Below are positions 780-50,730 of a DNA stretch of 64,000 bases, piece after piece (the stretch's first letter is position 1; each line of letters begins with the position of its first letter). The stretch covers positions 7,497,586-7,561,585 of the forward strand of contig JARUPZ010000007.1 of the NCBI GenBank assembly GCA_031213475.1. The letters run 5' to 3'. The position numbers and the translations under genes were made by a program. The notes under the pieces are model-generated. The model had not been told where the DNA came from, did not search any database, and saw only the letters and a list, made by a program, of their open reading frames with translations. This DNA is from Nereocystis luetkeana (lineage: Eukaryota > Sar > Phaeophyceae > Laminariales > Laminariaceae).

Positions 780-958
780 GACATGGCTTTGCATTGCCCA
801 CTGCAGTGCACACTGCACACGTGGCAACGTAGTATCTCTGTGGCGTAGCTTTGTGACCACAGAACTTGTATCTCTTCTAGGATTGAAGAATCGGCACGGA
901 CACTGGTTGTGCTGGATGTCGACGGGTAGAAAGAACGGTTTAATGTTAAGAACACACA
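780..958 (+). repeat. ~170-bp dispersed repeat (GGATGTCGACGGGTAG family)
   Basis: Shares TTTGTGACCACAGAACTTGT, ATTGAAGAATCGGCACGGAC and GCTGGATGTCGACGGGTAG with copies near 1880-1997, 4035-4145, 4795-4935 (inverted), 5090-5315 and 6560-6672 (inverted). It ends in a CA run here. Class unknown. Confidence 0.65.
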
Positions 959-2804: not shown

Positions 2805-2890
2805 ACTACTGGGATTGTTTTGATTGAACATTTATTTACAAGCGTTCGCTACACTCAACTCGTAGTTTGCGACAGAGTGGTATACCGTCA
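2805..2890 (-). mobile_element. small MITE, ACCACTCTGTC ends (M5)
   Basis: Shares TTTTGATTGAACAT and TTGCGACAGAGTGGTAT with the inverted copy at 5815-5898. Confidence 0.5.
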
Positions 2891-5814: not shown

Positions 5815-5898
5815 ATACCAACCACTCTGTCGCAAATATGAGGACTGGTTGTCCACTAATGTTCAATCAAAATGCCCCCTATATTTAGGGACGGAGTG
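5815..5898 (+). mobile_element. small MITE, ACCACTCTGTC ends (M5)
   Basis: Inverted ends ACCACTCTGTCGCAAATAT and ATATTTAGGGACGGAGTGGT around 45 bp. A related element with ends CTCTGTCCGGA/TCCGGACAGGGTGG is at 15780-15862. Lone GACAGAGTGGTA ends occur at 7331, 16731 and 27439. Confidence 0.55.
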
Positions 5899-6036
5899 GT
5901 ACCTTGTAGGGGTGTACTTACTGCCTGTAACAGTCTAACTACTATTAATACTATTATTATAAGAACTGCTGCACGTAGAATTGCTGCAAACGAGGAGATC
6001 TCCGTTCTCTGACTACGTTCGTTTTTTTATTCGTAG

Positions 6037-6146: not shown

Positions 6147-6663
6147 TTCACGTGTTTCGCAACGTCGTGTTCGCTTTTTTTTGTTCTTCTCTTTTTTGGC
6201 AGAATCGATCTCCGCCTCCCAACTCTTGATATCAAAGATAGATGAAAGGGGTACTATTATTAAGTACGATCGTATTAATAGTAGTCTGTGACCTCATATT
6301 TGGAGCCTACGTACGTATACACCGCAGATTTGCGCCTTTGCTGTATGAGCTACATATACCTGTGGTGATATTTTTGTTCCTGTCATGTATCATGCTTCGA
6401 AGGACAGAGTATGCACTGCAGATTTGCGCTTTTAATGCATGAGCTACATGTACCTGTAGTATTTTTTTTATTCCTGCGACGATATGTATCATGCTGCGAT
6501 GGACAGGGCATGTGTCCGCACTCCCAATCCACGGGTACTATTATTAATAATATTATACCTGTGTGTGTTCTTTCTACCCGTCGACATCCAGCACAACCAG
6601 TGTCCGTGCCGATTCTTCAATCCTAGAAGATATAAAAGTTCTGTGGTCACAAAGCTACGCCAC

Positions 6664-6965
6664 AGAGATACTTCTTTTTTTTTCTCTCATCCCATTCATT
6701 ATCTTTGCACATCTTCTTCTCTCTCTCCTTCCAACTCGTAACTCAGATCCGGGGTCACATAGCAGGCTCTTCTACCCCCTTCCCGCTACGGTACGTGCCT
6801 TCATTTTTTATCGCGAGAAGATTTCAGCCTTTTCTTCCCTCGTCGACCCGCATCGACCCACGCTGCAAGGCGCTCTCAACAATTGAATCCCTTTTTTTTA
6901 TTTTTGCAAATAAAGTCAAAGTCCGACCCTCCTGGGGCTCGAACCCAGGACTCAAACACTACGTT
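6664..6965 (-). repeat. tRNA-headed SINE copy
   Basis: Antisense copy: T-run tail, CCTTCCAACTCGTAACTCAG, TTGCAAATAAAGTCAAA, and the B-box end GGGGCTCGAACCCAGGACTC. The A-box end is replaced by TACCAGGTACCTGGTA text. Confidence 0.75.
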
Positions 6966-7377
6966 GCCACGTACCAGGTACCTGGTATTCAGTAAGCACA
7001 GCAGTGGGCAATGCAATGCCATGTCATTATACTATTTATAGATACGACATACACATTCTATGAAATAGAGAAACGAAAGGAACCAGTCAAAGATAAAACA
7101 AAAACAAAGAACACATATCGAAAGAGAAAAAGAAAAAAGAAAGAAGAAAAACTAGAAGAAATCTGTCGTGCCCCCCCCCCCCGCAGGCGAGGTGGCCAAC
7201 ACTTGAAAAAGAACGAGCTGGAAAAAAAATAACAAAACTAACAAAAAACATGTACCAGGTGTTTTTATGTCGTACTTCGAAGTATGTTTCCAATCTGTGA
7301 ACATTTTTTTCTTGTAGCGTACTTCAAAGCACCACTCTGTCACGGAGCGGGACCAAAGTAAATACCTGGTACTATTA

Positions 7378-8765: not shown

Positions 8766-8915
8766 CGCGTCGGTGCGCCTGCGTGCATACTATTACCATG
8801 CTACTTGTACTGCTGCTACTGCTACTGCTGCTGCTGCTGCTGCTACTTTTTGTAGTAGTAATACGATGCTCATCTACTACCACTACCTACTACTACAGTA
8901 CTACTACTTCTACTA

Positions 8916-9037
8916 TTACGGGGGACCATAGTTAATAGGACCTGTCGTACGTATACATAAAAACCTACCAGGTATATATTTAACCATTTCTACTATTAAT
9001 AACAATATTTGGTCCTATTAACTATGGCCCCCCGTAA
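8916..9037 (+). mobile_element. M1 MITE with microinsertions
   Basis: TTACGGGGGACCATAGTTAA and inverted end. Compared with the sibling at 46396-46500 it carries an extra CCAGGTA and an extra TTAATA, each next to TA. Confidence 0.85.
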
Positions 9038-16300: not shown

Positions 16301-19300
16301 AAAATAAAGTCGGTGCGATTTAGACACGCTTTGTTCGTGGTTGATACCCTTGAAGTTTATGGTTTGGTGGATCTGCTTCCAAAATACTCCTCTCCCTTCC
16401 GTCCCTCACTGGTGTGAGTCGAGAGCGTGTATGGTAAGATGCCTGGGGATGGGACTCCAAACGCATTCGATGGGATTTATCGGGAATTTCAAGTTTTAAT
16501 AATAATTACGGCCTGTTCCTGCATCGAAACTTTCGGTACCAAACAAGTACCGAGGAGGACAACTGATGACTCGTGGGACGGATGCCACCCGCGCGGGCTC
16601 TCTTCATTATGGACGCGTGATTGTGCACGAGGGGGTGTATGCGTGTTCCTCACCTCGTACATAAAGGTGTTCCTCATACATACTACTCTTGTTCATAGTT
16701 ATTTAGGACATTTTGATCAAATTATATTGTGACAGAGTGGTACCTGGTAACATTATCACATTTTTGCAGTTCGACGAAATCCTCGATATCGAAAGCTGAT
16801 ATTTTAAAAAATGAATAAGATATATGCGCACCAGGCACAACTCACATACGCGTCTTTATTTTTTCAATTGTATCCCTGTTTTGTTTTGTTTTTGAATGGT
16901 GTAAAAAGTGTATTTTTTTGTTCCTGGTGTGTGTGTTTTGTTTTTTTTCAGGTTCTGGGAGCGGCGGCGTGCACGGTGGTCTCGTTCGATTTTTCTGGTT
17001 CGGGCATGTCGGAGGGGGACTGGGTGACCTTGGGCTACTTCGAGCAGCACGACGTGGCCGATGTCCTGGCGTACCTGCGCAGCAACGGTAAGCAAACCAC
17101 CGCACGCACCAACCACCCGCCTCGGAAAAAATCTGGCAGGTGACCTGGCTGCACTGCACGGCGCCGCCGCCTCTGTACCGTATGTACTCCATGGAATAGA
17201 ATAAACCATTGCGCTCGTACGTACGATTCATGCTGTGTTATTGTTTTTGTCAGAGACACAATGGTTTGGTCTGGGGGGGGGGGGGTTCGGGGTGCGGGGT
17301 GGGGGGGTCTGTGTAGCTCTGTCGCGAAAAATAGTCGTTGGTCGCAATGGCTTTGTTCTAACGAACCAGACTCCTTTCCGTGAGTTGTACGCTCGGGTAC
17401 CTACGGTATCTGGTTTTCATGCGTATGATGTTGTGGCTTGAATCATACGAAGACCTGATTTTGTTGCGAAGGTTCTCGGACCGAAAGAGTAGGTGAATTA
17501 TTGGAGCTAAAAACTTGAAAGCAACATCGTATATGAACGAGTTTCGGGCGAATTTTTCGGTCTCACGGCAGTTTTTTTTTGTTTTTTCTTTTGTTCTTCC
17601 GTATTTTCTGTACGAGCATGTTCTCACTTTTTCGCGTCAATGGGGTGGGTGTGCTTGGTATATATACCGGGCATGTATTGAACGAGGCTCTTTACGTTTT
17701 TTTGTGTGTTTCTTCGCTGATTTTTTCGCTGATTTTTTTTTTGTTCTTGACGGGCAGGGATGGCCAACCGGTACCTCCTGTGGGGGCGAAGCATGGGGGC
17801 GGCGTCCGCTCTCCTGTACGCCGGGTGCTACCCCAACAGCGACCTGTGCGGGCTAATCCTGGACAGCCCGTTTTGCAGCTTCGGGCGTCTCGCGAAGGAC
17901 TTGGTCACGGAGGGCCAGGCAAGTTCTCAGTTTGCAGCACTAGTGTACGTACAGCAGTAGTGCTCTCGGCATGGCCAAGCTTGGACGAAGTGGTGGGCAT
18001 TGTATAGCCCACCCTTACCCCTCATTGCAGCGGTCGCTCGGTATTGGGGGTACGGGTAGGAGTTAGTGGGCTTTATTCACGGGAGGCCAGGCAAGTTTCC
18101 GGTGGTGTTCGACGACGTCGGGCGTTCCCCGACTTGAACCAAAACTTGATGGTGGTCGATATTTATCATGTTCGTGTATATGTATGTACTACTCCTATGA
18201 ATAAATTCGTTTTAGTTCGTAACAACTCCTCGTTACGTGTTCATTCCGAGTATTTTCCTCGGGGTTTTTTTAGGCGCTGGAGTTAGGGTTTAAGGTCGAG
18301 TCGATGATGGTCGGTGCGTGCAGTTTTTTTACTGGTGTACCTGGTGCCCAGGGAAATGTGTGCAGACAGCAGTAGTTTGTACGGCAGCAAGTATCATGTC
18401 TGCGTCTTAGAAGCTGACGGGGACGGTAGTACCCTTTCTGTATTTTCGGCTACCTTTTTTAGTCAAGGCAGCGTTCCGCGTGTCTGCCAGTAGTCTCGCC
18501 GCGTCTTTCGCCGCGTGCTGTGCTGATCGCACCCCCCATATAAACTCCCTCCCCTCCTCCCCCTTCCTTTCCCCCCCTCCCCATCCTCCCTCCCCCGTCC
18601 TCCCCCTTTCCCTCCCCCCCCCCCCCCCATCCTCCCCATTCCCCTCCTGCCCCGCCCCCTCTCCCCCCATTCGTTCCGTTCGCACAGGTCAACGTTCCTG
18701 GGTTCCTGGTGAGCGGGGCTTTGAAGATGCTCCGGCACAGCGTGAAGAAGCAGACGCGGTGTGACCTGAAGACCGTCGCTCCGATCGCCAGGGCGGAGCA
18801 GATACGATGCCCCTCCCTGTTCATCGCGGCTCGGAAGGACGTGATGGTGAGACCCAGCCATGGGGCGGACCTTTCGGAGAAGGTGGGAGGGGCGAGCCTG
18901 TTCGTGACGTGCAGGGGGACGCACAACACTTCGAGGCCTGGGTGAGTTGAGGGTGGGAGGGGGAAGCAGGGAGGGAGGGGGGAAAGGAGGAGCGGGGGTG
19001 AGGGGAGGGTACTCATTTGCTGCTTTCCTCCGTCCTTTCATCATTGACCACGCATCCCTTCCGAGACGAAGCAGGGGGGTGTACTCGATGGGAGAGATGT
19101 ACTCGATGTCATTCATGACCGTAGTCGTATGACCGTAGACCCTCGCATCCCTACAATGTCGGGACGGAGCATGTCGGGCTTTTCACCGACCAGGCAAACA
19201 ATGCTTGCACCAAGCGCGAAGCGCCGTGAGGTGTCCGGCGAGTCGCATGGAGGGTGAGCTGCATCCTACTAAGAACCACTTTTGAGGTGGACTTGCATAT

Positions 19301-22300
19301 GGATGACAGTTTCAACGAGACGGAGCAGGGGGGGGTTACTCGATAGGAGCTATGTACTCGATCTCATGCATGGCCGCAGTCGGGCGAGAGAGGGGGGGGG
19401 GGGGGAAGAAAGGTGTGATGGGTGGGGGAGGGAGAAATGCAGTGATGGCGCTTTCAGAGGTAAACGTTTGGATAAGAGGGGGTGAGCTATGTACAGGTAT
19501 GATGCACTTTTTCGGTGTCGACATTCACTCACAGACGCTAAACCTCTCTCTCCCCTCCCCTCCTCCGCTACACTCCCCCCCTTCCTGCCCCCTGCCCTCC
19601 CCCCCCCCCCCCCCCCGCGACGCCCCCACGCCCCCGTCGTCCGTCACACATGCCCACCGCGGTATCATCACCACCACAAATAAAACAAAAAAACAGGGTG
19701 GTGCTCCAGGCTATCGGGACGTTCGTGAAGGGCTGCTTCCGGGCCCGAGAGGTCCCGATCGCGGACACGTTTGCCACGATACAGCAGACGCTGGTCCAGG
19801 CGCAGGCAACCGCGCACGCGCTAAGGGCGAGCCGGATCGCGGCCGCCAACCCCGCCCCCCCCCCCCCCCTCCTCCTCCTCCTCCTCCTCCGCCACCGCGG
19901 CCGCCTCCGCTTCCGCCTCCTCCCGCGCTGTTGCCGCCGCCGCCGCCACGGCTGCTGCCGCCCGCGCCGACGCGGCCGCCACGGCCGCCGGAGCGGTCGC
20001 GGATGTTATAGCCAAGCCTGTAGTCAGGCCCGTGTCGATGTCTTTGGTTGCCATCCCGAAAGGCCCCCGAGGAACCAGGCAGCGGAGCGGGGGAGGGGAG
20101 GGACCTGGAAGGGCTGGACTCGCTCGGAGCGCTGGAAGTGGGTTTGGGGCTGGGGCTGGGGCAGCGGGGGGGGCGGCGCCTCGTCGTCCGCTGACCGCGC
20201 TAGAGACGGAGACGGCTCGGGAAATTAGGATTTCCAGCTTTACGGAGGCGAAAGCCAGGTTTGTGGGATGGGGGGAGGTGGGGGGGGGGGTGTACTTGGT
20301 AGGAGATATGTACTCGATGTAACGCATGGCCGTAGTCGTTAGACCATAGACCCTTGCATCCCTACAATGCCGGGACGGAGCATGACGGGTTTTCACCGAC
20401 CGGGCAGACCCTCGCATCCCTACAATGCCGAGACGGAGCATGACGGGTTTTACCCACCAGGCAGACATTTCTTGTACCTAGCGCGAAGCGCCGTGAGGTG
20501 TTGAGCGAGTCGCAGGAAGGGTGAGGGAGGTCGGCGGGGGGGGGGGGTTAAGAACCGGACCCTGCCGGATTAGGAACCAGACACTACTAATAGTAGGTTT
20601 TGGGTAGGAACCCGACGCTGCTACGTAGGTTATTTAACCGTTTTAGGACCGCAGTTTTGTTTTCGGCGCCAATCTACCTACAATTTGAGTGGTTCGTCCC
20701 AAAAACGGGGATGTTGGCTGAAGTTTGCGCTTTTACAGGCGGACCATAGTAAATAGGACCAATTATTGTTAGTAAAACTATGTAAATATGAAGGTTTTTG
20801 TGTGTACCGTAGGTCCTATTTACTAGGGCCCTCCGTAATAATAGGGTTAGGGTAGGGGGTGTTGCATTTTTTACTCGATAAGGGGGCGGGGGGTAGTTCT
20901 CATGCCACGCATGGCCGTAGTCGTTTGACCATAGACCCTCCCACCCTTACGATGACGGGACGGAGCACGCCGCATTGGCGTAGCCGTGTGACCAAACGAG
21001 TAGACCCTCGCATCCCTACCATGCCGACCCTACCAGAGGCGGGGAGGGGGGTGAGAGGTGTACTCGATATCGATATCATGCATAGCCGTAGTCGTATGAC
21101 CATAATAGACCCTGGTATCCCTGCAATGCCGGGACGGAGCACGTCGGGTTTTCGCCGACCAGGCAGATGCTGCTTGCTCCGAGCACGAGGCACCGATTTA
21201 GATGTCAATTACGCCCGTGCCCATCTCGAGACGTACGGCACGCAGGTTGATATTATTACGGTAAGGCACCCAAGAGGCAGTTACATAGTACTCCCATTGC
21301 TGTCTCTGGAAGTGGCTACACCGGAAATTATCTTGACTCATTGAAGCTGTCATCCATATGCAAGCCCGCCTTACAAGCGGTTCTTAGTAGGACGCAGCTC
21401 ACCCTTCATGCGACTCGCCGGACACCTACCTCACGGCGCTTTGCGCTTGGTGCAAATGTCTGCCTGGTCGGTGAAACCCGACGTGCTCTGTCCCGGCATT
21501 GTAGGGATGCGAGCATCTATGGCCATGCGACTACGGCCATGCATGAGATCGAGTACATCTCTCCTATCGAGTACACCTCCCTCCCCCCCCCCCCCCCTCT
21601 CTCTTCATTCCTCCCTCGCCCCTTACTCGTTCGGTTCGGTTCGGTTCGGTTCCTTTTCTGGCATTGTTGGCTTTGGTTTTTGATGTGCACGTTTTTCAAA
21701 CCCGCGCCTTTATCACGTTGTTCTTGTTTTGAACCGCAGGCGGACGTCGCTTTCGAGATCAGACCCGCTCGGCAGCGACGGCGGTAGCACCGGCGGCGGT
21801 TCTGACAGCGGGAGCACCGGCGGCGGTAGGCGCAGCGGCAACATCAGCGGCAACCGATCGATCTCCGACTTGCGAACCAACTACCCGCGACCCAGAGCAA
21901 GGTCCCACACCGACACACCCGACGTGAACAAGCGGGGCGCCAGCGATCAGAGAGACGTGTTGTCGGGCAGGAGCAAGGTTCTGCTTGCGGGGGAGGCCGA
22001 GTTCGAAGCCATGGTCGCGGAAGGGGAAGCGCTCGACCACGGAGTTCGTGTGGGAGGCGTTCGTACCGGCGAGGGCGGCGATGGAAGCGGTAACGGTGGC
22101 GCTAGCGGGGCGGGGGGAGGGGTTGTCGGAGGGGGGGAGTCGTCGGCCGCGGCGTCGGCCGCGGCGGCGCTGGGATCGCCTGGGTCGAGGGGAGTGAAGG
22201 AGCACCACGTTAACCCGCAGCGGCGCCCCAGCTGGAGGAGGATGGTTTCGGCCAAGAGCAGGCGGCGAGGCTCTTGGGACGAGCGTCGGGGAGGCACCGG

Positions 22301-23531
22301 GGAGATGTCGCCTTCGCTGTCGCCGCCGCTGCCGCCACCCCCGCCGCGGTGGCAACTGCCGATCGAGGGGCAGAGGCAGGAGCAGGTGTCCCAGGGGGTG
22401 GATGCAGCGGGCGCCGTTGCGGCTAACGGTTGCTTTCGCGCGGGAGAGGGTGGGGACGGAGGACCGGGGGAGGGGCGAGATGGAGGAGGAAAAGGAGAGG
22501 GGTGTAGTGTTGGGGCGGCGGCGGGCGCCGCGTCCGCGGCTGCGGCCGCCCCAGTTGCCGGCGGTTCGGGCGGGACTGTCGCGACGGGAGAGCCGCTGAG
22601 GGGGTTGCAAAGGCAGCCCAGCGGGAAGCGACCTCGACCTTCGGCGGCGGCCTCCTTGTTCCCTCGACAGCACCTGCAGCCGGGGGCGGGGATGGTAGGA
22701 GGGGTAAACAGGGGTATAGTTAGAACTGGAGTGGAGGTTGGGGCTGGGGCTACGGTGGGGGTGGAGGGCGGAGTCAGAGCTGTTGGTAGGGCGAGCGAGG
22801 GACTAAAGTCCCCCGCGCTTGGTAACAACGCTACTGGTGATGCCGATGTTGCTGGTGCTGTTGCTGCCGCTGCTGAGTTGGGGCCGCTGCGGGAGGTGAG
22901 TGAATCGAGCTTGCAAGGCAATCCTACCGGTTTTGCGATGTCAGACGGCGGCTCCGGCGACCGGCCGCGGGAGCGGCCCCTAACCGAGGGCGGCGCGCTT
23001 GGGCAAGGGCGGGGTCGGAGCGGCGACTGGTCCAAAGGAAGGGGCGTAGGTGAACAGAGGGATGTCGGCGCCGGGGGTGGGGGTAGGGGTGGCAGCGCAG
23101 GCGGTGGCGGCGCAAGGAGTGACGGTGGGAGCGGGCCGACAGCGGCGGCGTCGAGAAGAGGCAGCCGTAGCGGCGTTGGTGCTGCGCCGGGTCGGGGGGG
23201 GGGGTGGTGGGGTCGGATACGCTTGAAAGCTCCGGCCCTGTCCGCGTTCCGGCCAGGGGGAAGAGACCGTAGCGGGCGAAAGGGTTTGAAAGGCGGAAGG
23301 GGGTCGTTCGTGGAGGCGGGGGCGGAGGGGGAGCAGGCGTGGGGGTCGGGGGCTTCCGGGTCTGGCGGGGTGGCCTTGGATGGTACGACGTCGTCGGTGT
23401 GTTCGGTGTGCGACAAGGCGACTTCCGAGTGCTTCTGCCGCGCGGTGCAACAGCCGAGGACGAATTTCAGCAGAGATCCGCAGCGTCGGCCGAGCGCGTT
23501 GCGTACGGAATCCGGCAAGCTTAAGATGTGA
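10825..23531 (+). CDS. alpha/beta-hydrolase superfamily serine hydrolase, eight exons, long C-terminal extension
   Basis: Predicted soluble serine hydrolase of the plant/protist alpha/beta-hydrolase group whose N-terminus carries an IRPPR-type motif (KOG1552-like); the substrate is unknown. Exons: 10825-10934, 12112-12273, 14805-14979, 16952-17087, 17758-17918, 18688-18941, 19697-20258, 21740-23531. Visible in order: VRPPR motif, oxyanion-side LHGNS, FDFSGSG, nucleophile elbow GRSMG, acid residue in ARKDVMVRP, and His in GTHNTSRP, so the catalytic Ser-Asp-His set is complete. Every exon junction agrees in phase. The total is 3352 nt, one more than a multiple of three, and the excess falls in a C15 run at 19855-19869; with one C fewer the product would be 1116 residues. 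About 300 residues are hydrolase and the rest is Ser/Ala/Gly-rich. The introns hold MITEs and poly(C) retroposons. The start codon is the least certain part. Confidence 0.88.
11313..11420 (+). mobile_element. M1 MITE
   Basis: ATACGGGGGACCATAGTTAA and inverted GGTCCCCCGTAATA, 108 bp, in hydrolase intron 1. Confidence 0.8.
11754..11862 (+). mobile_element. M1 MITE
   Basis: ATTGGGGGGGGGACCATAG and inverted GGTCCTTCGTAATA; in hydrolase intron 1. Confidence 0.8.
12112..12273 (+). CDS. hydrolase exon 2, IVRPPR motif, NAGNAG acceptor
   Basis: Encodes GWYEKIVMAIVRPPRCKY and the following residues. The VRPPR-x-x-Y segment is the family signature just before the hydrolase core. The acceptor is CCCAGCAG, a tandem NAGNAG: starts at 12112 or 12115 both keep the frame and differ by one Ser codon. 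Donor GTGCGT at 12274 leaves two bases. Confidence 0.82.
12525..12632 (+). mobile_element. M1 MITE
   Basis: TATTGGGGGGGACCACAGTA and inverted GGTCCCCCGTAATA; in hydrolase intron 2. Confidence 0.8.
13293..13372 (+). repeat. TG and TC dinucleotide arrays
   Basis: TG run at 13298-13327 and TC run at 13345-13371. Confidence 0.9.
13478..13571 (+). mobile_element. TTAA-type palindromic MITE (M2)
   Basis: TTAACCCCTTTAGAACCGCA at one end and inverted CGGGCCTAAAAGGG at the other. A copy of the TIR family M4 directly abuts it at 13568. Confidence 0.7.
13568..13862 (+). mobile_element. TIR element with TTAGGG-like tract (M4)
   Basis: Ends AATCTGGGAGAAGGGATCTT and its inverted form CCCTTCTCCCAGATTGC. 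The inside has TTGGTTCCTGTTGGGATCAA, a CTAACCCTGACCCCAAAC tract and CGCGGCTGCGCCGCG. Copies at 30969-31270 and 32605-32925; an end fragment at 28594-28632. Confidence 0.72.
14157..14253 (+). mobile_element. TTAA-type palindromic MITE (M2)
   Basis: Bounded by TTAA on both sides; termini CCCTTTTAGGACCGCAGTCC and inverted ...AGGGG. Lies in hydrolase intron 2. Confidence 0.75.
14805..14979 (+). CDS. hydrolase exon 3, beta strands and LHGNS oxyanion region
   Basis: Encodes KRRDFIVTNRRGLKL followed by LPCVVYLHGNSSARVDVV. The HGNS motif lies after the third beta strand, where the family places its oxyanion hole. Acceptor GCATGCAG at 14804 and donor GTGCGC at 14980; incoming phase 1, outgoing phase 0, both matching the neighbours. 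A weaker ACC-rich intron precedes it. Confidence 0.9.
15035..15110 (-). repeat. poly(C) retroposon 3' fragment
   Basis: GGTGTACTCGATAGGAGAGA through CATGCATGGCCGT between two G-runs. In hydrolase intron 3, just after exon 3. Confidence 0.7.
15906..16107 (+). mobile_element. M2 MITE split by an M1 MITE
   Basis: Left arm AACCCTTTCAGGACTGCATT runs to 15960 and right arm GAAACGGGACTGCAGTC resumes at 16076. The 105-bp M1 element at 15961-16065 sits between them. In hydrolase intron 3. Confidence 0.8.
15961..16065 (+). mobile_element. M1 MITE nested in M2
   Basis: TTACGGGGGACCATAGTTTG to GGTCCCCCATAA, inside the M2 copy at 15906-16107. Confidence 0.82.
16184..16286 (+). mobile_element. M1 MITE
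   Basis: TTACGGGGGACTAGTAAATA and inverted GGTCCCCCGTAA; in hydrolase intron 3. Confidence 0.8.
16952..17087 (+). CDS. hydrolase exon 4, FDFSGSG segment
   Basis: Long T-rich tract and TTCAG acceptor, then VLGAAACTVV and SFDFSGSGMSEGDWVTLGYF, a highly recognisable family block (turn after beta 4, with the S-G-x-S-E-G-D pattern), then the helix DVADVLAYLRSNG. Donor GTAAGC. The exon ends after the first base of a Gly codon. Confidence 0.93.
17758..17918 (+). CDS. hydrolase exon 5, nucleophile elbow GRSMG, GC donor
   Basis: Encodes YLLWGRSMGAASALLYAG, holding the catalytic serine in G-x-S-x-G, then LCGLILDSPFCSFGRLA, the next core strand. It ends at CAG followed by GCAAGT. A GC-AG intron is required to reach the next homologous block in frame, and CAG/GCAAGT fits the usual strong GC donor consensus. 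Confidence 0.92.
18688..18941 (+). CDS. hydrolase exon 6, catalytic Asp and His
   Basis: Begins VNVPGFLVSGALKMLRHSV (cap/helix region), continues through IRCPSLFIAARKDVMVRP, whose Asp is the predicted acid, and ends with GTHNTSRPG, whose His is the predicted base. Acceptor CGCACAG, donor GGTGAGTT. The exon ends two bases into a Gly codon. A C/T-rich stretch at 18535-18670 forms the upstream polypyrimidine region. Confidence 0.92.
19008..19310 (-). repeat. poly(C) retroposon joined to a LINE 3' tail
   Basis: 19008-19072 matches the LINE 3' end (TTGACCACGCATCCCTTCCG in reverse sense), and 19073-19310 is a copy of the poly(C) short retroposon beginning at the G-run side GGTGTACTCGAT. In hydrolase intron 6; a further partial copy is at 19329-19400. 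Confidence 0.72.
19697..20258 (+). CDS. hydrolase exon 7, end of core plus Ala/Ser-rich region; frameshift at C15
   Basis: Starts VVLQAIGTFVKGCF, the final helix of the hydrolase. The same frame runs to a pure C15 run at 19855-19869. Beyond it the coding-like frame is shifted by +1: a Ser/Ala-rich tract, then KPVVRPVSMSLVAIPKGPRG and ETETAREIRISSFTEAKA. Only that second frame joins the next exon in phase (donor CCAG/GTTTGT at 20259). This suggests a homopolymer length error or a real indel in the run. Confidence 0.72.
20281..20530 (-). repeat. poly(C) retroposon copies
   Basis: G-run, GTGTACTTGGTAGGAGATAT, CATGGCCGTAGTCG, then a locally doubled CCTACAATGC-GGGACGGAGCATG segment and GCGCGAAGCGCCGTGAGGTG. 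Confidence 0.72.
20634..20725 (+). mobile_element. M2 MITE, decayed
   Basis: TTAACCGTTTTAGGACCGCA at the left; right arm AAAAACGGGG then loses similarity. In hydrolase intron 7. Confidence 0.6.
20733..20838 (+). mobile_element. M1 MITE, decayed ends
   Basis: TTACAGGCGGACCATAGTAA and GGGCCCTCCGTAA; in hydrolase intron 7. Confidence 0.7.
20865..21190 (-). repeat. poly(C) retroposon, rearranged copies
   Basis: Three partial copies of CATGGCCGTAGTCGT...GGGACGGAGCA in a row with G-rich breaks. In hydrolase intron 7. Confidence 0.65.
21259..21600 (+). repeat. near full-length poly(C) short retroposon (~340 bp)
   Basis: Sense orientation: starts GTAAGGCACCCAAGAGGCAG, passes GACTCATTGAAGCTGTCATC, CGGCGCTTTGCGCTTGGTGC, CGACGTGCTCTGTCCCGGCA and GGCCATGCATGAGATCGAGT, and ends CTCCTATCGAGTACACCTCC then C14. 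No coding capacity. No clear tRNA box pair, so the promoter type is unknown. Confidence 0.8.
21740..23531 (+). CDS. hydrolase terminal exon, 596-residue low-complexity extension
   Basis: Acceptor AACCGCAG at 21739 and an uninterrupted frame to TGA at 23529-23531. Gly/Ser/Ala/Arg-rich and probably disordered. Repeated basic-Ser sites RRTSLS, RRPSW and RRGSW resemble basophilic kinase targets. A Cys cluster near the end (VCSVCDKATSECFCRAV) breaks the low-complexity pattern. A 587-codon open frame on the opposite strand is a GC-bias shadow. Confidence 0.8.
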
Positions 23532-24068
23532 AACCGCAAAAAACAAAAACAAAAAAAAACGGACAAGCGAGCGACGCGAGCGAGCGAGTGTGGATGCGAG
23601 AGAGGGGTATTCGCACAGCAGTTACAGCGAAAACAAAGGAAGCCGTTTTTGTTTTTTTTGGGGGGGGGGGGGAGGAGGGGCAGCCCACAGCATGTTCTGT
23701 CGCAGCCCATGTTTTGTGTGATTATTCCGTCCTCTTCCGCAGAGTGCCATGGTTGTTTTTTTTAGTGTAGAGAACGAAACCGAGGATTTTTCCCGTGTTT
23801 TTTTCATATACCTGCGATGTTTTACCGTGATATTTTACATGGTTGGTGGTTTGGATGGAGTGAAATGAGTTGGAATGGGATGATGAGATATAGGATGGAA
23901 TGGGCGCAAGAGTTTTGTTCTCTTTGCACGGATGAAAGTTTGCACGGAGGAAAAAGAAACACAGGCATCCACCGTTGTGTTAACGGGGCTAGTTGTTGGT
24001 TTCACGCCTTGTGTGCAGTGAGTGCATGGGCCGCGACCACACGGCGGCGGCAGCATAAGATGGCCTGG

Positions 24069-27206: not shown

Positions 27207-27606
27207 TGAAATGCATTCGAGCGCTGTTCTCAGTTTCCTTGTCTTATTTTTTGCGAAGTCGCAATTGGAGTTGGTGCGAGTTTGGAGAGAGACCAGTCGG
27301 CACCAGTACAGACGGCACCCCAGCAGGCGAGGTTTGGCTCAGACTGAACATCTGTTTTTTTCCCTTGGAAAACCAAGAACAAAAGGCACGCGCTTCGCGC
27401 TCGCGCGCCTCATTGTTAAATACGATTGCTATATTATGGGACAGAGTGGTATGCCAGTACAGCAGTACGATAGCTCGGCGGGAGCAGGACGCCCCACCCC
27501 CCAACAGCCATCAATAGGTTGTGGTTTGCCTGGTCCATACGGCGGTAGTGTTCACGGGAAAGCACGTCTGCCGATATCTGTATATCGTAGCATGTCTCCC
27601 CTCGCC
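27207..27606 (+). repeat. ~400-bp direct duplication, copy A
   Basis: ATGAAATGCATTCGAG, GAAGTCGCAATTGGAGTTGG and CCCCACCCCCCAACAGCCAT recur in order at 28634-29048. Open frames differ between copies, so it is not treated as coding. A GACA run precedes copy A (27115-27150). Confidence 0.7.
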
Positions 27607-34600: not shown

Positions 34601-35146
34601 TATTAATATTAATAGTGAGCTGTGACAGAGTCTGGTGCATCACTACTTTCACTATACTATTAATAACAGCACGAAAAAGTCTAATTCGCATCAACTTCAA
34701 GAAGAAAAGTCATTCGCTTTTACTTTACAATCCTCTGTGTGGTACAGACAGCCCATTTTTTGCCGTTTGAGACGGATACAGAAGTAGTACTAGTGGATAA
34801 TTTTGATGTCGCACAAGAAGTAATCCACTCCTTCCTGTTGTACTGTAAAATACCTGCTATAGTATGCGAATGGAAACGCGAAGTAAGTACACAAAACTAT
34901 TATTTCAGCTCGTGCGACGATAGACGATAGACGCTCGATCTCGAGAGAGACTCAGCCCACGGCCAACCCGCTCGGTGGAGTCAAGATCAACTAGTATAGA
35001 ATACGGGCTCGAAGGAATGAGGTGGATGCATGCTCTAGGGGGCAAGAGCTTGCCGGCGGCGTCCTACGGTATCCTCCCAAACCTGAAAAAAAAAAACTTT
35101 TTTGCCATTCGAGACGGATACAGCACTAGTACTCGTAGATAATGTT

Positions 35147-37355: not shown

Positions 37356-40300
37356 CTGATATCGTTGTTGGTTGCTGTTGTTGTTGTTGTTGTTACTGAT
37401 ATGGTATTTGTTGTCGATACCGGCATCGGTATCGCTATCGTTAATGTTGTCGTTATCGGTAACATTATCGGTATTGTTGTCGTTATTGGTATCGTTATCG
37501 GTATCGCTATCGGTATCGCTATCGGTATCGCTATCGTTGTCGCTATTGTTATTGTTGTGTGCAGGCGTTGCTGTTGCTGCTGCTGTGTCTGTTGTTGTCG
37601 AGAAAAACTCAAATTCACGGCGGGAAACAACAACATTAACTTCACCTGCTCTGTTAAACACTAGATCTATTGAAATGGTACAGCTCTAAGTGGTACCTGG
37701 TATATGTGTTGTTGCACCGCCACTGCATAATTGCACATGTTTGCGTTGTTTGCTACCCCGCCCCCCCCCCCAGACAAGCGGTTTTTAGTAGCATGCAGCT
37801 CACCCTTCATGCGACTCACCGAACACCTCACGGCGCTTCGCGCTTGGTGCAAGCAATGTCTGCCTCGTCGGTGACCACCCGACATGCTCCGTCCCGGCAT
37901 TGTAGGGATGCGAGGGTCTATCGCCATACGACTACGGCCATGCATGAGCGCTTGGGATACACATATAGCAAAAGTAACAGGAAAGGGTAAAGCACACGTA
38001 GGCGAGATGGATGCGATCCTAACAGACTCGCACCGGAACACTAGGATTAAGAGATGTATCCTGATGAATGTGATAGTACCAAAGCTAGAATATGCAGGAG
38101 ATGTATGGGAAGGGAACGCGAAGCTGATGAAACAGTCGGAAACAGTACAGATGACAGCAGCTAAACAAATCCTGAGATGCTCAAGTACGACTAGTAATAC
38201 AGTATTGAGAGCAGAACTGGGAATGTACTAAGTCAAGACAAATAGATATATGAGAAAGTTGAAATGGCAATATGAAGCAAGGAACATGCCAAGAAAGAGG
38301 TTGCCAGCCATAGTTGATGGAGCTGTATGGGAGAAAGTAACCAAAGGGCGAGCTGGAATAAGGTGGGATAGCGTAGTTGAGAAAGTATGGAAGAATTGAG
38401 GAGGAAACCGGGAAGACATGATGTCCCCAGAGAAGTTTGGGCGGTACAAGGCAGAAGTCGAAGAAAGGATGGTCGCGAAGAAGGGAAAGGCTACTTAGCG
38501 CTAAGAAACAAGGTGGAATCGGAGAAAACACATAAGAGATATACGGGGGACTGAGAGAAGGAATAGGAATGAAAAAGTATTTGCACGGCCCAACGCACTT
38601 CGCGAAAACGCTGAAAATGCGATTTCGTGTAGGTGACCTGGACCTGCCAGAAAGAAGAAAGAGGTATACCAGTAGCCCGGAGGAGGAAGAAGCAGATGAA
38701 CAGGTGTGTGTGCCCGTGTGGCGAAGCAATAGAGAGTAGAATCCAAATAGTAGAAGAATGTGAAATGTACACGGAGGAACGGGATGTATTAGGAGAGGAG
38801 ATGAGGGAAACATACAAATGTGACATGGAGGAGTTTGGTACACTAGAAAGCAGCGAGAAAACGATCGCTATCCTAGGAGATAGATGGTGGCCACAGGCGG
38901 CCAAACAGGAAGGGGACAAGATTCGCAAAAAAAAACTACCAGGTATACCATATATGGAAACAACGTTATGAACGCCCACCTGCTGTAGGTGTCTCTTTTA
39001 GGAGTAGGAATGGTGCTCCGTCTCGAAATGGATGCGTGGTCAATGGTCAAATGGTTAAGGCAAGCAACAAACGAGTGCCCCCTTCCCCCCCCCCCGCGAC
39101 GACTACGACCATGCATGATAATAAGTATCCAACCCCCGATTGTGCCTTTGGGCGGGAGCTTTCCCCCCCCCCTTCGCTTATCCCCCCCCCTTGTCTCTTG
39201 TTTCGTCACCGTGACCATGAAAATATAGGCAGACCCACTTACTCACCCGACACGGAGCACGTTCGCGTTGCCTCCAGCCCACCGTCCCAATCCAAATACT
39301 TGCCAAACTCGCTGCAAAACAACGCCAGCACCGGAGAAGACGTTGGTGATGGTAGCGGCGGCGGTGGTGGGTTTGGTAGTGGTAGCAGCGGCGGTGGCAG
39401 GGGTGATGGCGGCGGTGGGGGCGTCGGTGGAGGCGGTGGTGAGCAGCAAAGGCAGAAAGAGCAGCAAAAAAAGAGAGGGCAGAGCAAAGAGAGGGCGACG
39501 TCGTTACCAGAGGGTGTGCAGCATGGACAGATAAAAAACGCGGGAGGAAGGCGGGGGATAGGGGAGGAGAGGAGGGTGGGAGGGGGGGGAGGAAGGGGGA
39601 GGGGGTAGGAGAGAGGAGAAGAGGGGGGGGGTGTACTCGATAGGAGAGATGTACTCGATCTCGTGCATGGCCGTAGTCGTACGACCATAGACCCTCGCAT
39701 CCCTACAATGCCGGGACGGAGCATGTCGGGTCTTCACCGACCAGGAGAGGAGGGGGGGGGGGGGGGGGGGGGGGGTACTCGATATCATGCATGGCCGTCG
39801 TCGTATGACCATAGACCCTTGCATACCTGCCATGCCGGGACGGAGCACGTCGGGTTTTCACCGACCAGGCAGACATTGCTTGCACCAAGCCCGACCAAGC
39901 AGGGGCGGGGGGGATAAGAGGGGAGGAGCGGGGGGGGGGGGGGGCAGTCGACCATTTCAAAAGGTGCCACAGAGGCTTGCTTGCTTCGAATTCGATCGCT
40001 TTCGGCCGGGCCGACTCGTCTCTGATGGCTCGAAAACGTCATCTGCTGTCGCGGTCGGTCGGTTTGTCGGCCCGTCGGTTTAGCTGACGGCTGCCGTGGG
40101 CTCTTCGGGCCAAATTAAGGGCCCTCTACAGCAGCACCGTAGCCTTTGCGCCATCCCCCCCCCCCCCCCCCCCGCCCGCCCGCTTCACCCTCCCTGCAAG
40201 GACTGGATACCTCTTTGGCAAACGCTCAGCACAATTGGCTCCAAGGCACAGACATATTCTTATTTTGCTATTGGACTACCCGACCCGGCCGAACCTTAAC

Positions 40301-43300
40301 CCTAACCCCGACCACGGCCCGCCTAGCACCATCGCATACAGGCTGCCGGGGCGGAAATTTGCATCTTCGGCGCCGACCATTGGGAAAACATGTGATACAG
40401 TATTCCTGGGCTTCTTTGTAAAGTTGGGAAAAGGCGTTCTGCGATAGAGATATCACATTCGGGCAAAAAAACTTTTTGAGTCACCAAGGCGTCCTTACCG
40501 GGCGGTAGTTGAAGGATGAGTATGTAACCTGTGCTCTACATTGTTGGGGCATAATGCGTACGTACACGTACGAGATGCGTGCAGCATCAGTCGTATTCTC
40601 ACGTGTGTCCCCGTTATACCTTGGGGGGACATAGGAGCCTCAGCAGAGTTAGGGTAAAACCTCTATCGCAGGACGCCTCGGAAGTTCCCGCGATCAAGCT
40701 CGTGATGCAGAGGTGTGTGTGTGCATCCATCAGCCACTACCGCTGACCCCTCCCCGACCACCCCCCCACCACCACCACTCCCACCACCTGCCATCCTACC
40801 TCTCCCTTGCTCCACTACTCCACTCCCAACCGCCCCTCCTTCCCAACCCCCCCACACACACACATCTCCGCCTTACCCCCCCCCCCCCCCTAACCTACCC
40901 CCCCCCCCCCCCCCCTCCCCCGTCCCGATCCCCCAGCCCCCCGTCGCGCGAAGCAACCGCGTACCGCTTGATCAGCGGCGCATCCGACGCTCGCAGCCCG
41001 GAGAGGCAGAGCAAGCCGTCCCCCTTGATGGCCAGCACGAGCACCGCCATCTGGCGCCGCATGGGCCCGGCCATCATGTTCGACACCACCACCTGGTGCG
41101 GGGTTGAGAAATTGTTTCGGGGAGGGTTGGGATGATTATGGAGGGAAATGGGTAGTTCTGTTCGTAGACGAGGTAACGGTCTCCGCATGCAGACACGCCT
41201 GATTAATGGGAGAGCATGAGGCGTGTCTCTATCGGGGACTGGGATATAGTTCATGGGTGGCGTGGGATCTCAACGCTGCAAACGTTCCTTTCGAGGAAGG
41301 CATCCCGTGGAGGTAAGCATTTCCACGTCGGGCACGAGCAAGCACGAGGTCCCACTACGAGTACGAGCAGACGCGAGGTAGTCACCGGGTTGTCCAGCCA
41401 TGCCTGGGATTTTGTGCCTTTTTGTTTTTAGTTGAAGCAATTAAACTTAAAACTAAAGTAGAGGTGGGAACTCTTATCAATGAAACTATAACTCGTAATT
41501 AAAGGAGGGTTGGACAGAAAAAAAGTTTTGGGGAGGAATATCCAATCCTTGAAATTGAGAATCAACTGTTTTACTGTACAGATATAACAGGAATGTTTTC
41601 GCTCAGCAGGGAGGGACCCCCAACGCTTAAAAACGAGATTTCAACTCATCGTTGAAAGGAGAGTTGATATAATTTTTGGGGGAGGAATGCCCGAGTCTTT
41701 AAAATCGACTTTCAGCTGGTACGGGGAGGGGTTGGCAGAATTGGGGGGGGAAGAGATATCCAACACACAAAACAAAAAACAATGCAGTTTCAACTCTTTT
41801 ACAACAAAAAACAGCGATTTTTTGCTGTTTCCCTCTCTTGTGAGCGTGGGCGCGGAGAGCAGTTGCGTGTACCACTTTGGCCGTAAATACCAGAAACGTT
41901 TCGAGCATTCATCATAAAATACATACCCAGACATCCCTTACGTTTTGTGGACAAGAGGGTACATACCTATTATACCACAATAAAATGCATGAAACCGGCC
42001 GATGGCCACCCACCTCTCCCGCGAGATCTCCTATCGAAACCTCGCGCGTGTGCAGCGCCAGCACCTCTTCTTCGACCCCGTTCAGCTACAAGGAAAGGGA
42101 TAAAACCGGCGCATCGGCCACAGCGGGGGGGAGGGGGAGGGGGGGGGGATGATGAGCCATATTGCCGTGGGGGGGGGGTAGGATGGGGTGGGTTTTACGT
42201 AGTGTGCACGGTGATAAACTGCGGACCGTCAACGGCAGGGATAGGGGGGGGGAGGGGGAGACCGGGGTCAAGGCGGGGGGGGGGGGGGGGGGGGGTTCTC
42301 GAGATCATGCAGGGGCGTAGTCGTATGACCCTATATTGCCGGGACGGAGCACGTTGTGTTTTCACCGACCAAGCAGACATTGCTTGCACCAAGCGAAGCG
42401 CCGTGAGGTGTTTGACATGAAGGGCGTGCAGCATCCTCGACTAGGTATGGCGACTGGCGTGTGTACCAGCTCGTAGCTGATGTGTACGCCTAGACTCGAT
42501 TGCCGATGGCCGGTCAATACACAGTCGATGTTCGAGGCAACGTATAGCCACTGTCAAGTGACTTGTGCGAGAAGCTCCAACAGAAGAGAAGAAGATGGTG
42601 GTGGCGACCCCAGCCCGATGTGTTGATTGATCTGCTCAGCTGGAAGCTGATGATGGTGAGCAAAAGCGGAGTGAGCTGCGGTGCGCGTGTGCGCTCACAG
42701 CTCGCAGCAAAGGACGACCCTTGGACTTCGTTCGAACCAAAACAAAAAATAGGGAAATACACTTGTAGCCAGTTCAATAAAACACAACACGGAGACCCCC
42801 CAGGTTTACTGCAACAATCAATATATCTTGGGTTGCGTACTCGTGACCCCCGTATAATATAGTCTATATTGTTACTTCAAGCACTATAAAAACTATGCTA
42901 CTGGTCCAGGAGGGATACTGGAGATATCATTTCCATGATTTACCAGTGCGCACGTACTGCATGTGCAGCCGTAGATTCTGTACGTACGTACTACAGTACA
43001 TCTACGATGCTACTATTTCGGGGGGGCATAGTTAATAGGACCAAATATTGTTAGTGAAAATGGTTAAATATATAGGTTTTTATGTATACTATAGCTCCTA
43101 TTAACTATGGTCCCCCGTAATAGTTATCGATACTTATTCTGCGATGTGTACGAGTGCACAGCGGTAGATAGTGTAAGACAGCTGCTGCTGCTGCTGTATA
43201 CTGCCGTATTCAACAAACTTTAACCCACAGACTGGAAAACCGTCTGTTGTACCTAGAAACGCGTAAATGTACACCAGATGGCCTAAGTGTTGTCGAGCAA

Positions 43301-46300
43301 CGACAATGACGGCTACGGACAAGTATCATCTGCTAATATCCTCTACTGAGAACCTCTTGTAAGGCGGACTTGCTTATGGATGACGGTATCGAATTGATTG
43401 ATTTTGTTTTTTGCTAGACAGGGGGGGTGTACTCGATAGGAGAGATGTACTCGATCTCATGCATGGCCGTAGCCGTATGACTATGGACCCTCGCATCCCT
43501 ACAATGCCGGGACGGAGCACGTCGGATTTTCACCGACCAGGGCAGACATTGCTTGCACCAAGCGCGAAGCGCCGTGACGTAGGTGTCCGGCGAGTCGCAT
43601 GAAGGGTGAGCTGCATCCTACTAAAAACCACTTGTGAGGCGGACTTGCATATGGATGACAGCTTCAATGAGTTGATTTAAATTTCCGGTGTAGCCACTTC
43701 CAGAGATAGCAATGGGAGTACTATGTAACTGCTTCTTGGGTGCCTTACCTGGAACACTACGTGATACGATAAATTTCCTTGTCCGGAGTAAAGGGGGTAG
43801 CGTGGAATTACGTCGCGCACGAAAAAAAGTTGTACCGCAATTAATGGGGTTGTGGGGAACAGGTGAATGGGCGCCGTCCGTCGGACGCCGACCGTAACTA
43901 AGGTCGGGTTGGTCGGGTAGGGTAGGGTAAGGTAGGGGAGGAGAGGAGAGGAGAGGAGAGGAGAGGAGAGGAGAGGAGAGGAGAGGAGAGGAGAGGAGAG
44001 GAGAGGGGAGGGGGGTGGAGGGGAGGGGAGGGGAGGGGAGGGGAGGGGAGGGAAGGGGAGGGATGGGTAGGTAGGGTAGGTAGGGTAGGGTAGGGTAGGG
44101 TAGGGTAGGGTAGGCTAGGCTAGGCTAGGGTAGGCTTGATATAAAAAGTTAAAATGTCCATCATACGTACAAAAAAGTTTTGCTTGGCGTGAGCGAGGAT
44201 GTCGATGTCAACGTCCACGGCCGTAACGTGTTTGGCCCCAAGCAGCGCCGCCGCTGCCGCCAGCACGCCCGAACCGGTCCCGTAGTCGACCACCTCCTCT
44301 TCTCCGCCTGCGCAACAGCCGTAGGGGAGGGAAGAGGGGGGGGGGGGGTGGGGTGGAGTGGTGTGGGGGAGGGATATACATATTTTTTTCGGTTTTCAGG
44401 AGGAATTCGAAGGCATAGCGTGGGGTTGGGTGAGGCAGGGTGTGGTGTGGTTTGGTGTGGTGTGGTGTGGTGGGATGGGGTGGGATGAAGTGGAGTGGAG
44501 TGGGGTGGGGAGGGAGAGGGGAGGGGTGGCGGTGGCGGAGGGAAGGGGTGGGGGTGGGGTGAGGGGCGGGATTGTCGACTTCTGTTTTAAGAGTCGGAAG
44601 CGTAGTGTGCGGTGCGGTGCGGTGCGGTGCGGTGGAGTGGGGCAGGGTGGGGTGGGGAGGCAAGGGGAGTAGAGACAAGCCGGCCTAAAGCGGAGGGCGG
44701 CGCCGACGTAAGAGGAGCGCAAGCCAGAACCCCGTTAAGCGTCGTGATCAAATATTTTACAATCGCACGGTTTACGAAAACAAACGGGGAAAATCGGAAA
44801 AACGCTTCCACCCGCAGGACATTGAAACGCAAGGCGGACAACCTTCCCAGCCCGGCCGATACCCCAAACGCTCGTTCACCAATCCCTTAGGATGACGGTC
44901 CACCCTCCCCCCTCCCTTTCCCCAACCTCCAACTCAATTCGACGCCATCATCCCTATTCAACAAAGTCCGCCTCGCAGGCGGTTCTCAGTAGGATGCAGC
45001 TCGCTCCTCTATGCGACTCGGCAAACACCTCACGGCGCTCCGCGCTTGGTGGAAGTAATGCCTACCTGGTCGGTGAAAACCCGACGTTGCTGCGTCCCGG
45101 CATTGTAGGGATAACAGTGTCTATGGCCATACGACGACAGCCATGCGAGACATAAGTACACCCTCCCCCTCCCCCCCCCCTCCCCCCTCCCCCCCCCCTC
45201 CCCCCCCCCTCCCCCCCTACCAAGCCCTCCGTTCACTTCGACACCCTCGCCTTTGATAACTTCGTCGAGGAAGTCCAAGCACAGCCACGTGCTGGGGTGC
45301 TGGCCGTCCCCCCACCCCTGCCCTTCGAGCAGCTTCACTTGTTGGAAACCCAGTGACGTTTCTTCGTCGCGCTGTACGGGCAGCACCCTTAGCTTTCCTG
45401 CGGTGACGGTTTCGAAGCCGTCGGAGGTTCTCGTGGCCTCCCAGCTCTCTAGGCACTCCACCGGATCCTCCTCCCAGTCCAAGGCCCCTTTCGTTTTTAG
45501 GTCGACGGGCGTTATGATAGGCAGCTAAACAACAACACCGGTATGGTATTCGACATTCATCAGCGTGTTGTCTTGACAGTAAAAACGTTTTTTTTCTACC
45601 TAACGGCATCAGTACACTCAAGTGCCCGTCATGACTCTTCAGAGATACTGGTACTAATTACTGTAGCCATAAACTACTGTGAGGTGGAGAAACCTAAAAA
45701 TATATATCGCACGTTCATCTGGGTATAGGTATATATATGGGCACATGAAATGCCAACAACGTACCGGGTACAAAAATCGCAACAAAAAACAAGCTGAAAC
45801 AAGAAAAAGAGAAATAAAAATATAAATAAGAAAATGAGCCAAAAAAAGGGAACCCTGACATACATGCGACGATCATACAAATGACGCAGGCAGATCAACA
45901 TACTATTCTTGTAGGTACAGGATCTCCGGAATCGCTCCAGGTCGAAAAACAAGCAATTTCAGCTCGAAAGATATGCGTCACTCCAGCTCCCAAAAGGCTT
46001 GACTCCAGCTTGAAGGAGGCTTCGCGCCAGCTCGAAAGAGAGCACCATATACCTTAGGCGGGCGTGTAACTGAGCAACTCGTAAAAATAGAGTAAGCCAT
46101 GGAGAGGTAAACAATAAAATCGGAGATAGAATTTCGGAGACAGAATAACGGAGATAAAGTATCGGATATATAGTCAATAATAGACGTAATATCGGAGATA
46201 GAGTATCGTATCCGAGATATCATATTGGATGTCGGAGACACAATATTGGATTTCGGAGATACAGCATGGAGCATCAAGGATCAAGTATCAGAGACAGCAT

Positions 46301-46918: not shown

Positions 46919-47221
46919 CTATCGGGGGGGGGTGGGGGTAGGAAAGCGGGGGGCGGGAGGGAAAATATCAAAGCCGGGTGTGCTCGATATTGGTACCTGC
47001 AACGTCAACCATTGGGCTGGCTAAATCTGAGCCGTTTGTTTGCAGTACTAACATAAAAATACCATTGCGCGCAAATACCTCCTCCGTCGATACCAACAGC
47101 AACAACAGGATTCATTATGTCACTCGAGACACGTCGTTCTTGTAGTACCCCCCCGTCACGCCTCGCCATCCCCTCCCCCCCCCCCCCCCCCCCCCCTATT
47201 TATTCCTTGCTCCTTCCCGCT

Positions 47222-47325
47222 GAAAACCCCACGTGCTCCGTCCCGGCATTGTAGGGGTGCGAGGGTCTACGGAAATACGATTACGGCCATGCATGACATG
47301 AGCACCCCCCCCCCCCCCTCCCCTC
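47222..47325 (+). repeat. poly(C) retroposon 3' fragment
   Basis: CACGTGCTCCGTCCCGGCAT to CATGACATGAGCACC and C14, then CTCCC repeats. Confidence 0.68.
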
Positions 47326-47819
47326 CCCTCCCCTCCCCTCCCCTCTTCCCTTCCTTCGTCCCTTCCCTCCCCCATCCCCTCCATCCTCCCCGCCCTCCTC
47401 TCATCCCCCCCCCCCCCCCACCAATTTTTTATGATGCCATTCCTAGTGCTTTCGTTATCGCTATTGCTTTTCCTACTGCTATTGCTCTTTTGCTGTTCCT
47501 ATATACTCCCAATTTCCCTTTCCAAATATAAGTTCCTGTTCCTATTCCTAGTACTAATCGCACTCCAAGTACTGATCCTATGAATATCCCTAGAATATAA
47601 TCCCTCCGTCCGCGGAATATATTATATTCCCCGCGTTTGCTCTTTCTTGCCTTGTTTCACCGAAACTGCGCAAGCTGCTCCCATCTCGAAAAGCGCATCT
47701 CCTAACGCCTGCCAAGGAACATCGACCGCTGAACCTTCATAACGCCATGCCGTTACTACCTTATACTCCTGACGTCACAAACCACAACACATGATGGGGC
47801 GGGCGGAGCGGGGGGGGGA

Positions 47820-48752: not shown

Positions 48753-48756
48753 TCTG

Positions 48757-48895
48757 GGGGGGGGGAGGGGGTACTCAACATCATGCATGGCCGTAGTCGT
48801 ATGACCATAGACCCTTGCATCCCTGCAATGCCGGGACGGAGCACGTCGGGTTTTCACCGACCAGGCAGACATTAGGCGGGGGGGGGGGGGGCGGG
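48757..48895 (-). repeat. poly(C) retroposon abutting the truncated LINE 5' end
   Basis: G-rich GGGGGTACTCAACATCATGC to GACCAGGCAGACATTAG, then a G-run at 48879. Its tail side touches the LINE truncation point. Confidence 0.7.
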
Positions 48896-50525: not shown

Positions 50526-50692
50526 CTCTACCGCACTGTGGAGGCATGTTTCTTCTACCGCACTGTGGAGGCATACCTCCTCTACCGCACTGTGGAGGCG
50601 TAACTCCTCTACCGCACTGTAGAGGCATGGCTCCTCTATCGCACTGTAGAGGCATGCCTCCTCTACCGCACTATAGAGGCATGCTAAGGTAC
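50526..50692 (+). repeat. 30-bp minisatellite, about six units
   Basis: CTACCGCACTGTGGAGGCAT unit with variants. Unit length is divisible by three, so frames stay open. Each unit holds GAGGCATGCCTC-like palindromes. Confidence 0.9.
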
Positions 50693-50730
50693 ATAGAGGT
50701 TCGCACTTTGATCGCAAACTCTCACTGACG

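Follow-up and report, generated by a model that had tools for sequence, protein, structure and literature searches.

Among mariner-type transposons, Mos1 leaves CCA or TGG, the central mismatch at Sleeping Beauty excision sites is resolved either way to give CAG or CTG, and Stowaway elements have the terminal consensus CTCCCTCCGT, the first bases of which are CTC. The transposases of Sleeping Beauty and mariner place their nick three bases within the element and leave the flanks with 3-base 3′ overhangs, which in somatic mammalian cells are joined mainly by NHEJ, according to the accounts in PMC7827188 and PMC8151067; the latter gives the Sleeping Beauty footprint as CAG between TAs. Plant mariner/Stowaway elements (Osmar5, Ppmar2) are described as leaving footprints of 1–4 terminal bases between TAs (PMC1925063; PMC9632168). 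For rice, one account of putative natural excisions of DNA transposons from several superfamilies lists 8 of 94 as perfect and the others as carrying deletions and/or filler (PMC4423477).

We analyzed a window of 64,000 nucleotides from the brown alga Nereocystis luetkeana (contig JARUPZ010000007.1), together with further sequence from the same genome, and found short insertions bounded by TA, the most common of which is CCWGG. Very probably, these micro-insertions are excision footprints of TA-targeting Tc1/mariner-type cut-and-paste elements, and the parent of the main class is a MITE that we call M3. As far as the sources cited above portray it, Sleeping Beauty would share with this system its TA target and target duplication, a staggered cut, and an end-joined scar of terminal bases; unlike in Sleeping Beauty, the main scar here is five bases long, which we read as the product of a one-base overlap, and scars number of the order of 100,000 in a natural genome. 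Short elements with terminal inverted repeats at TA and footprints of terminal bases also recall Stowaway, Osmar5, and Ppmar2 as those plant studies present them, and, unlike the mostly untidy rice excisions of PMC4423477, the product here is uniform. An initial annotation of this DNA had named no described system that matches, which the Sleeping Beauty and plant mariner/Stowaway footprints contradict; the mechanism is already known, and what is new is its scale and uniformity. A limited search of open-access literature found no uniform scars in six-figure number, including for Stowaway elements in algae, and the papers returned by a full-text search for the 9-mer scar word were unrelated, judged by titles among the matches listed.

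The 9-mer TACCTGGTA/TACCAGGTA, which the initial annotation had reported to recur across the window, occurs there 47 times, compared with a mean of 0.48 and a maximum of 3 over 100 shuffles, and by eye these 47 scars sit in differing surroundings. Genome-wide (465 Mb, 1,987 contigs), the two forms occur 91,155 and 91,240 times, or 182,395 times altogether, versus 883 and 861 times (1,744) for a control word read backwards, and the density of intact CCWGG scars is ~1 per 2.5 kb. An unbiased sample, consisting of the window and 20 other stretches (L009–L028; 264 kb including 2,500 N), contains 113 CCWGG words between TAs compared with 2.5 expected, with a central A in 50 and a central T in 63, versus just 8 CCSGG words in all. 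Also in excess between TAs in this sample are TTAA (59 versus 5.1 expected), CAG/CTG (91 versus 36), CGAG/CTCG (51 versus 10.6), CAGCAG/CTGCTG (32 versus 1.25), CG (147 versus 60), and simple-repeat words such as TATA and CTAC; CCATGG occurs 5 times and CCTAGG, TACCAGGCCTGGTA, and TACCTGGCCAGGTA not once. The excess of words between TAs grows with self-complementarity, from 1.26 through 1.88 to 3.10 for 4-mers and from 1.19 through 1.38 to 4.52 for 5-mers, the top 5-mer class being mostly CCWGG (113 of 196), and the trend is weak for 7- and 8-mers. Words one mismatch away from the scar number 125 versus 55.7 expected in the same sample, and with the intact words they form a decay series, as in neutral decay, that reflects neither a fresh burst nor a conserved motif. 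Tandem words occur in the window as follows:

Window 6972–6987, no strand assigned: tandem pair of putative footprints, TACCAGGTACCTGGTA.
Window 58930–58945, no strand assigned: tandem pair of putative footprints, TACCTGGTACCTGGTA.
Window 34601–34614, no strand assigned: tandem TTAA words, TATTAATATTAATA, adjoining a copy of the MITE M1.

Rfam gave no matches in the window at gathering scores, and Pfam searches with ten window ORFs gave nothing informative, one PrmA match lying barely above the cut-off. The window also holds many copies (19000–24000 and 37900–50800) of a repeat with CAATGCCGGGACGGAGCA and CGGCCATGCATGA, in long inverted and direct arrangement and with poly-G/C runs, as well as two reading frames that are related to each other and may belong to a retroelement, at 38184–38997 and 47885–48660; the frames at 38184–38867 and 47885–48628 (minus strand) matched no Pfam family above the cut-off.

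The insertions become visible when sibling copies of M1 are compared:

Window 8916–9037, plus strand: M1 copy with end TTACGGGGGACCATAG and, from sibling-copy comparison, two inferred excision footprints.
Window 8966–8974, no strand assigned: TACCAGGTA footprint at M1 site A (insert CCAGGTA, 8968–8974), a putative M3 scar.
Window 8994–9001, no strand assigned: TATTAATA footprint at M1 site B (insert TTAATA, 8996–9001), a putative scar of a nested M1.
Window 46396–46500, plus strand: comparison M1 copy in which sites A and B are both empty.
Window 58037–58169, minus strand: M1 copy holding several inserts bounded by TA (CCTTGTAAG, TTAA, and CCTTGTATG).

The M1 copies quoted in the initial annotation agree letter for letter with the sequence, and the copy at 8916–9037 adds CCAGGTA and TTAATA relative to the copy at 46396–46500. 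Its left TA lies at 8914–8915; on the right, the flank after GTAA reads ATA, and the TA is not in place. An M1 end searched against viral contigs, a set from which the window's own genome records may be excluded, gave no exact matches. When repeats were compared with one another, TA bounded 7 of 11 indels of seven bases (3 CCWGG, 2 TTAAA, 2 others), 5 of 17 of six bases (3 TTAA), 4 of 5 of 14 bases, and 2 of 4 of 12 bases, and just 15 of 159 of the remaining lengths from 2 to 14, all of these being small raw counts. TA-bounded inserts are a distinct class, although indels generally are not confined to TA.

At site A, the pattern AAAACCTA-N(2–14)-TATATTTAACCATTTT has 663 genomic matches, and the reversed control pattern has none. 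Among the 100 matches listed of these 663, 66 inserts hold an intact TACCWGGTA: CCAGG is found 35 times and CCTGG 18 times, CCWGG stands at the next TA in three more, and ten are compound inserts that include TACCWGGTA. Trimmed or related forms in the same 100 are CCGG (6), CTGG (3), and CCAG, CCCTGG, CCAGGG, and CTTCGAAG (2 each); CTCCGGAG, CTCCGAG, CCTAGG, CCATGG, and CG occur once each, and each leftover insert is an altered form found once, two being nothing more than 2-base insertions. The joining of short self-complementary ends should yield palindromes and trimmed forms, and the variants among these 100 are those that end joining predicts. The 663 inserts are not all independent, since an M1 copy that already held a scar could have multiplied, and because the proposed joining should give CCAGG and CCTGG equally, the ratio of 35 to 18 counts against it. 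The scar lies between two TAs where the empty site has a single TA, and the empty state of site A is the more common in the sample, which makes the insert the derived state rather than the ancestral one. One ~270-bp insert at site A (L041) was considered as a parent and rejected; it proved to be a SINE-like repeat, ending in an (AC)n tail, that had inserted into a CCTGG scar. SINE-like repeats with (GT/AC)n tails are also found at window 845–934 and 6569–6667 and in L003, L014, and L027.

M3 is a TA-flanked, Stowaway-like MITE with ends CCACTCTGTCCC...GGGACAGAGTGG, and in 10 of 12 matches to its terminal sequence CCACTCTGTCCCATAATA, TA stands before the match. Occurrences in the window include the following:

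Window 5822–5899, minus strand: 78-bp M3 MITE, CCACTCCGTCCC...GCGACAGAGTGG, with TA beside the 5899 end and TTGGTA at the other end.
Window 2863–2880, minus strand: M3 terminal sequence, with TA before it.
Window 16723–16740, minus strand: M3 terminal sequence abutting a TACCTGGTA footprint at 16741–16749.
Window 27432–27449, minus strand: M3 terminal sequence inside a ~260-bp repeat, of which another copy lies near 28877.

The six measurable copies (two in L019, one each in L047, L056, L057, and at window 5822–5899, where one side is without TA) are 77, 78, 78, 79, 79, and 80 bp long. M3 has a TA target duplication, terminal inverted repeats, short length, and no coding frame of note, as Stowaway-type elements do, and the inner part of its end, CTCTGTCCCATAATA, resembles Stowaway ends. 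Unlike Stowaway, it starts with CCA rather than CTC, and since its first bases depart from the consensus given above, we call M3 Stowaway-like only. It shares its terminal CCA with Mos1, and its putative scar differs from that of Mos1 in being CCWGG rather than CCA or TGG. A nick three bases inside M3 would likewise match the one given for mariner transposases in PMC7827188. The ~260-bp repeat with an M3 end occurs at window 27449 and 28877 and at L012:2924, each time on the minus strand; TACTGCTGTA adjoins the M3 end in the copies read (27449 and L012), and part of the CTGCTG class may therefore derive from that repeat.

A search for M1 site A followed by an M3 end gave 263 matches with ≤2 mismatches, compared with 27 for the control, although many of the 100 matches listed vary before the TA and need not be M1. 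We read the junction contexts of the two exact matches. In one (L057), site A of an M1 copy is occupied by a 79-bp M3 that lies between two TAs and has ends identical over the first 12 bases; in the other (L056), the sequence to the right of M3 is not M1. Empty, occupied, and scarred states were thus all observed at one M1 site, the occupied state in the single copy L057, and in that copy the element occupying the site has the terminal bases of which the CCWGG scar is made. From these sequence relationships, M3 is the likely parent of the CCWGG scar. The initial annotation had suggested looking for a full-length element whose ends match CCTGG; those of M3 agree as far as CCA/TGG and no further, and the remaining bases would come from the overlap of two ends. 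Other leads to a parent gave less. In fetched sequence, no repeated word follows TACCWGG beyond TA itself, and scans for TA-flanked terminal inverted repeats, which returned M1 and other repeats, found no CCWGG-ended family; a CCT-ended repeat near L015:8307–8584 was dropped, having few copies and several matches not at TA.

In the model that we propose, an element would insert at TA and duplicate it; at excision, the 5′ ends would be cut inside the element, a few terminal bases would stay on the flanks as 3′ overhangs, and end joining would fuse both flanks. We infer the overhang length and the joining steps from the footprints and the element ends. For M3, TA-CCA flanks on both strands would meet with a one-base A:A mismatch overlap, and fill-in and mismatch resolution would give TA-CCAGG-TA or TA-CCTGG-TA; joining without overlap would give CCATGG, and loss of the A would give CCGG, both as minor products, whereas CCTAGG would require a CCT end. 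CCTGG and CCAGG are reverse complements, as the initial annotation stated; rather than one sequence in two orientations, they would be two strand outcomes of one scar. For M1, with ends TTACGGGGG, TTA overhangs would overlap by complementary TA to leave TTAA, and one base of overlap would leave TTAAA, a word found twice among the indels. A pogo-like element with CAG ends would pair fully except for A:A and leave CAG or CTG. A 3-base overhang, assumed for all families, places CAG/CTG, TTAA, and CCAGG/CCTGG under one rule; CAGCAG/CTGCTG and the 9-base CCTTGTAAG class, to which both 9-base inserts of the M1 copy at 58037–58169 belong, fall outside it.

Target sites carry a further mark. Of the 113 CCWGG sites in the sample, 97 were used, the 16 left out having another CCWGG in the flank or a position at an end. 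The reconstituted sites show a two-fold symmetric preference that reaches ~7 bases, with R favored before the TA, A at −3, −5, and −6, T at −7, and the mirror image opposite (sides pooled), whereas TAs at large show little preference beyond the neighboring base. We read such symmetry as the imprint of a symmetric enzyme complex choosing its target. A putative mariner-like transposase would act on M3. A profile search gave 28 matches to DDE_1 (PF03184, pogo-like) transposases, without a link to M3, and no DDE_3 (PF13358) match among the 30 candidates scored. One DDE_1 match lies in a ~2.6-kb pogo-like element (L053:1952–4563) between identical 22-base terminal inverted repeats, CAGTGGGGGGCCCTATATAGTG, beside TA, and this element is a plausible source of the CAG/CTG scars; comparable TA-flanked repeats were absent at four other transposase loci (L051, L052, L054, and L055).

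The TTAA word is probably M1's own scar, to judge from sequence at site B. M1 has TA-TTACGGGGG (TATTA) at its left border in 23 of 26 copies and CCCCCGTAA-TA (TAATA) at its right border in 14 of 26 (29 aligned rows, less two unrelated and one duplicate), and the simplest reading of these counts is that it is a TA element whose ends are TTACGGGGG. Site B reads ACTA-ACAAT when empty, holds TTAA at window 8994, in the copy at 58037, and in L036, and is occupied by a nested M1 in seven places (L029, L031, L033, L037, L040 twice, and L048), with the right junction GTAA-TA-ACAA (GTAATAACAA) in five of the seven and altered forms in L029 and L033. The element whose ends would yield TTAA therefore occupies the same site, although less confidence attaches to the register of the M1 ends, and hence to reading TTAA as a scar: flanks on the right differ among copies, and comparison of L009:6305–6406 with its L010 counterpart, a pair from a comparison of interrupted repeat matches that yielded mostly spurious pairs, fits a right border CCCCCG-TA. 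These same observations, and the layout TATTA-CGGGGG...CCCCCG-TAATA, would also suit an M1 with ends CGGGGG that targets TATTAATA/TTAA, with TTAATA there first and TTAA a preferred target rather than a scar. We regard this as unlikely, as it leaves the origin of TTAATA at an otherwise empty site B unexplained, whereas the scar reading covers nested M1 and TTAA in one step.

For the CCWGG class, a larger autonomous element that truly ends in CCWGG and leaves a 5-base overhang would be compatible with the footprints alone: CCWGG is self-complementary save at its center, like a full overhang of that length, and CCAGGG and CCCTGG variants exist. The M3 at site A would then be a coincidence, which seems to us quite improbable given that fetched sequence holds no such repeat and that CCATGG, the no-overlap product of CCA ends, appears 5 times in 264 kb and TACCAGGCCTGGTA and TACCTGGCCAGGTA never. 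The initial annotation had offered three readings without choosing, namely an excision footprint, a minimal mobile sequence, and a repair product, and is partly supported. The second of these, a unit of 5–7 bases itself copied or templated into TA by some enzyme, draws on the great uniformity of 182,395 copies and on the lack, in fetched sequence, of any abundant repeat starting with TACCWGG other than footprints followed by TA. It is nevertheless hard to credit when the genome contains a MITE whose ends the insert matches, that MITE occupies the very site in one copy, trimmed and extended forms at this one site vary as joining products do, and M1 and the TTAA word behave likewise. Simple repeats are plentiful in the genome, and slippage may partly produce the CTGCTG and CGTACG words; that sequence bias, microsatellite slippage, or a selected protein-binding site could account for CCWGG in place of insertion is scarcely conceivable, since exact TA-X-TA insertions separate sibling copies and the one-mismatch neighbors follow neutral decay rather than marking a kept motif. 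The repair-product reading stands insofar as a scar is what end joining leaves, and the footprint of a Tc1/mariner-like element is favored by the occupied copy of the same site, the product spectrum, and the symmetric target preference.

Seven M3 ends in the 264-kb sample stand after TA; scaled up to the whole genome, this would correspond to elements numbering on the order of 10,000, and on this rough scaling scars perhaps exceed surviving M3 elements ~20-fold. As neutral scars accumulate with the product of copy number and excision rate, no extreme rate would be required. More tentatively, and with rather less than even confidence, we suggest that this is an excision-dominated genome, in which a reproducibly end-joined, Stowaway-like MITE has left scars that outnumber the elements many-fold and form a leading micro-repeat; each scar would turn one TA target into two, and sites would thereby renew themselves as hot spots, accumulating scars in tandem. 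If the scar reading is right, the ~180,000 copies of the commonest scar are a fossil record of transposon excision, the normally invisible half of cut-and-paste transposition. In genomes of this sort, micro-indels bounded by TA differ from ordinary indels and call for caution, and a genome so rich in scars would allow direct measurement over evolutionary time, even in families of which few copies survive, of how often elements excise, how faithfully ends are joined, how mismatches are resolved, and which targets are preferred.
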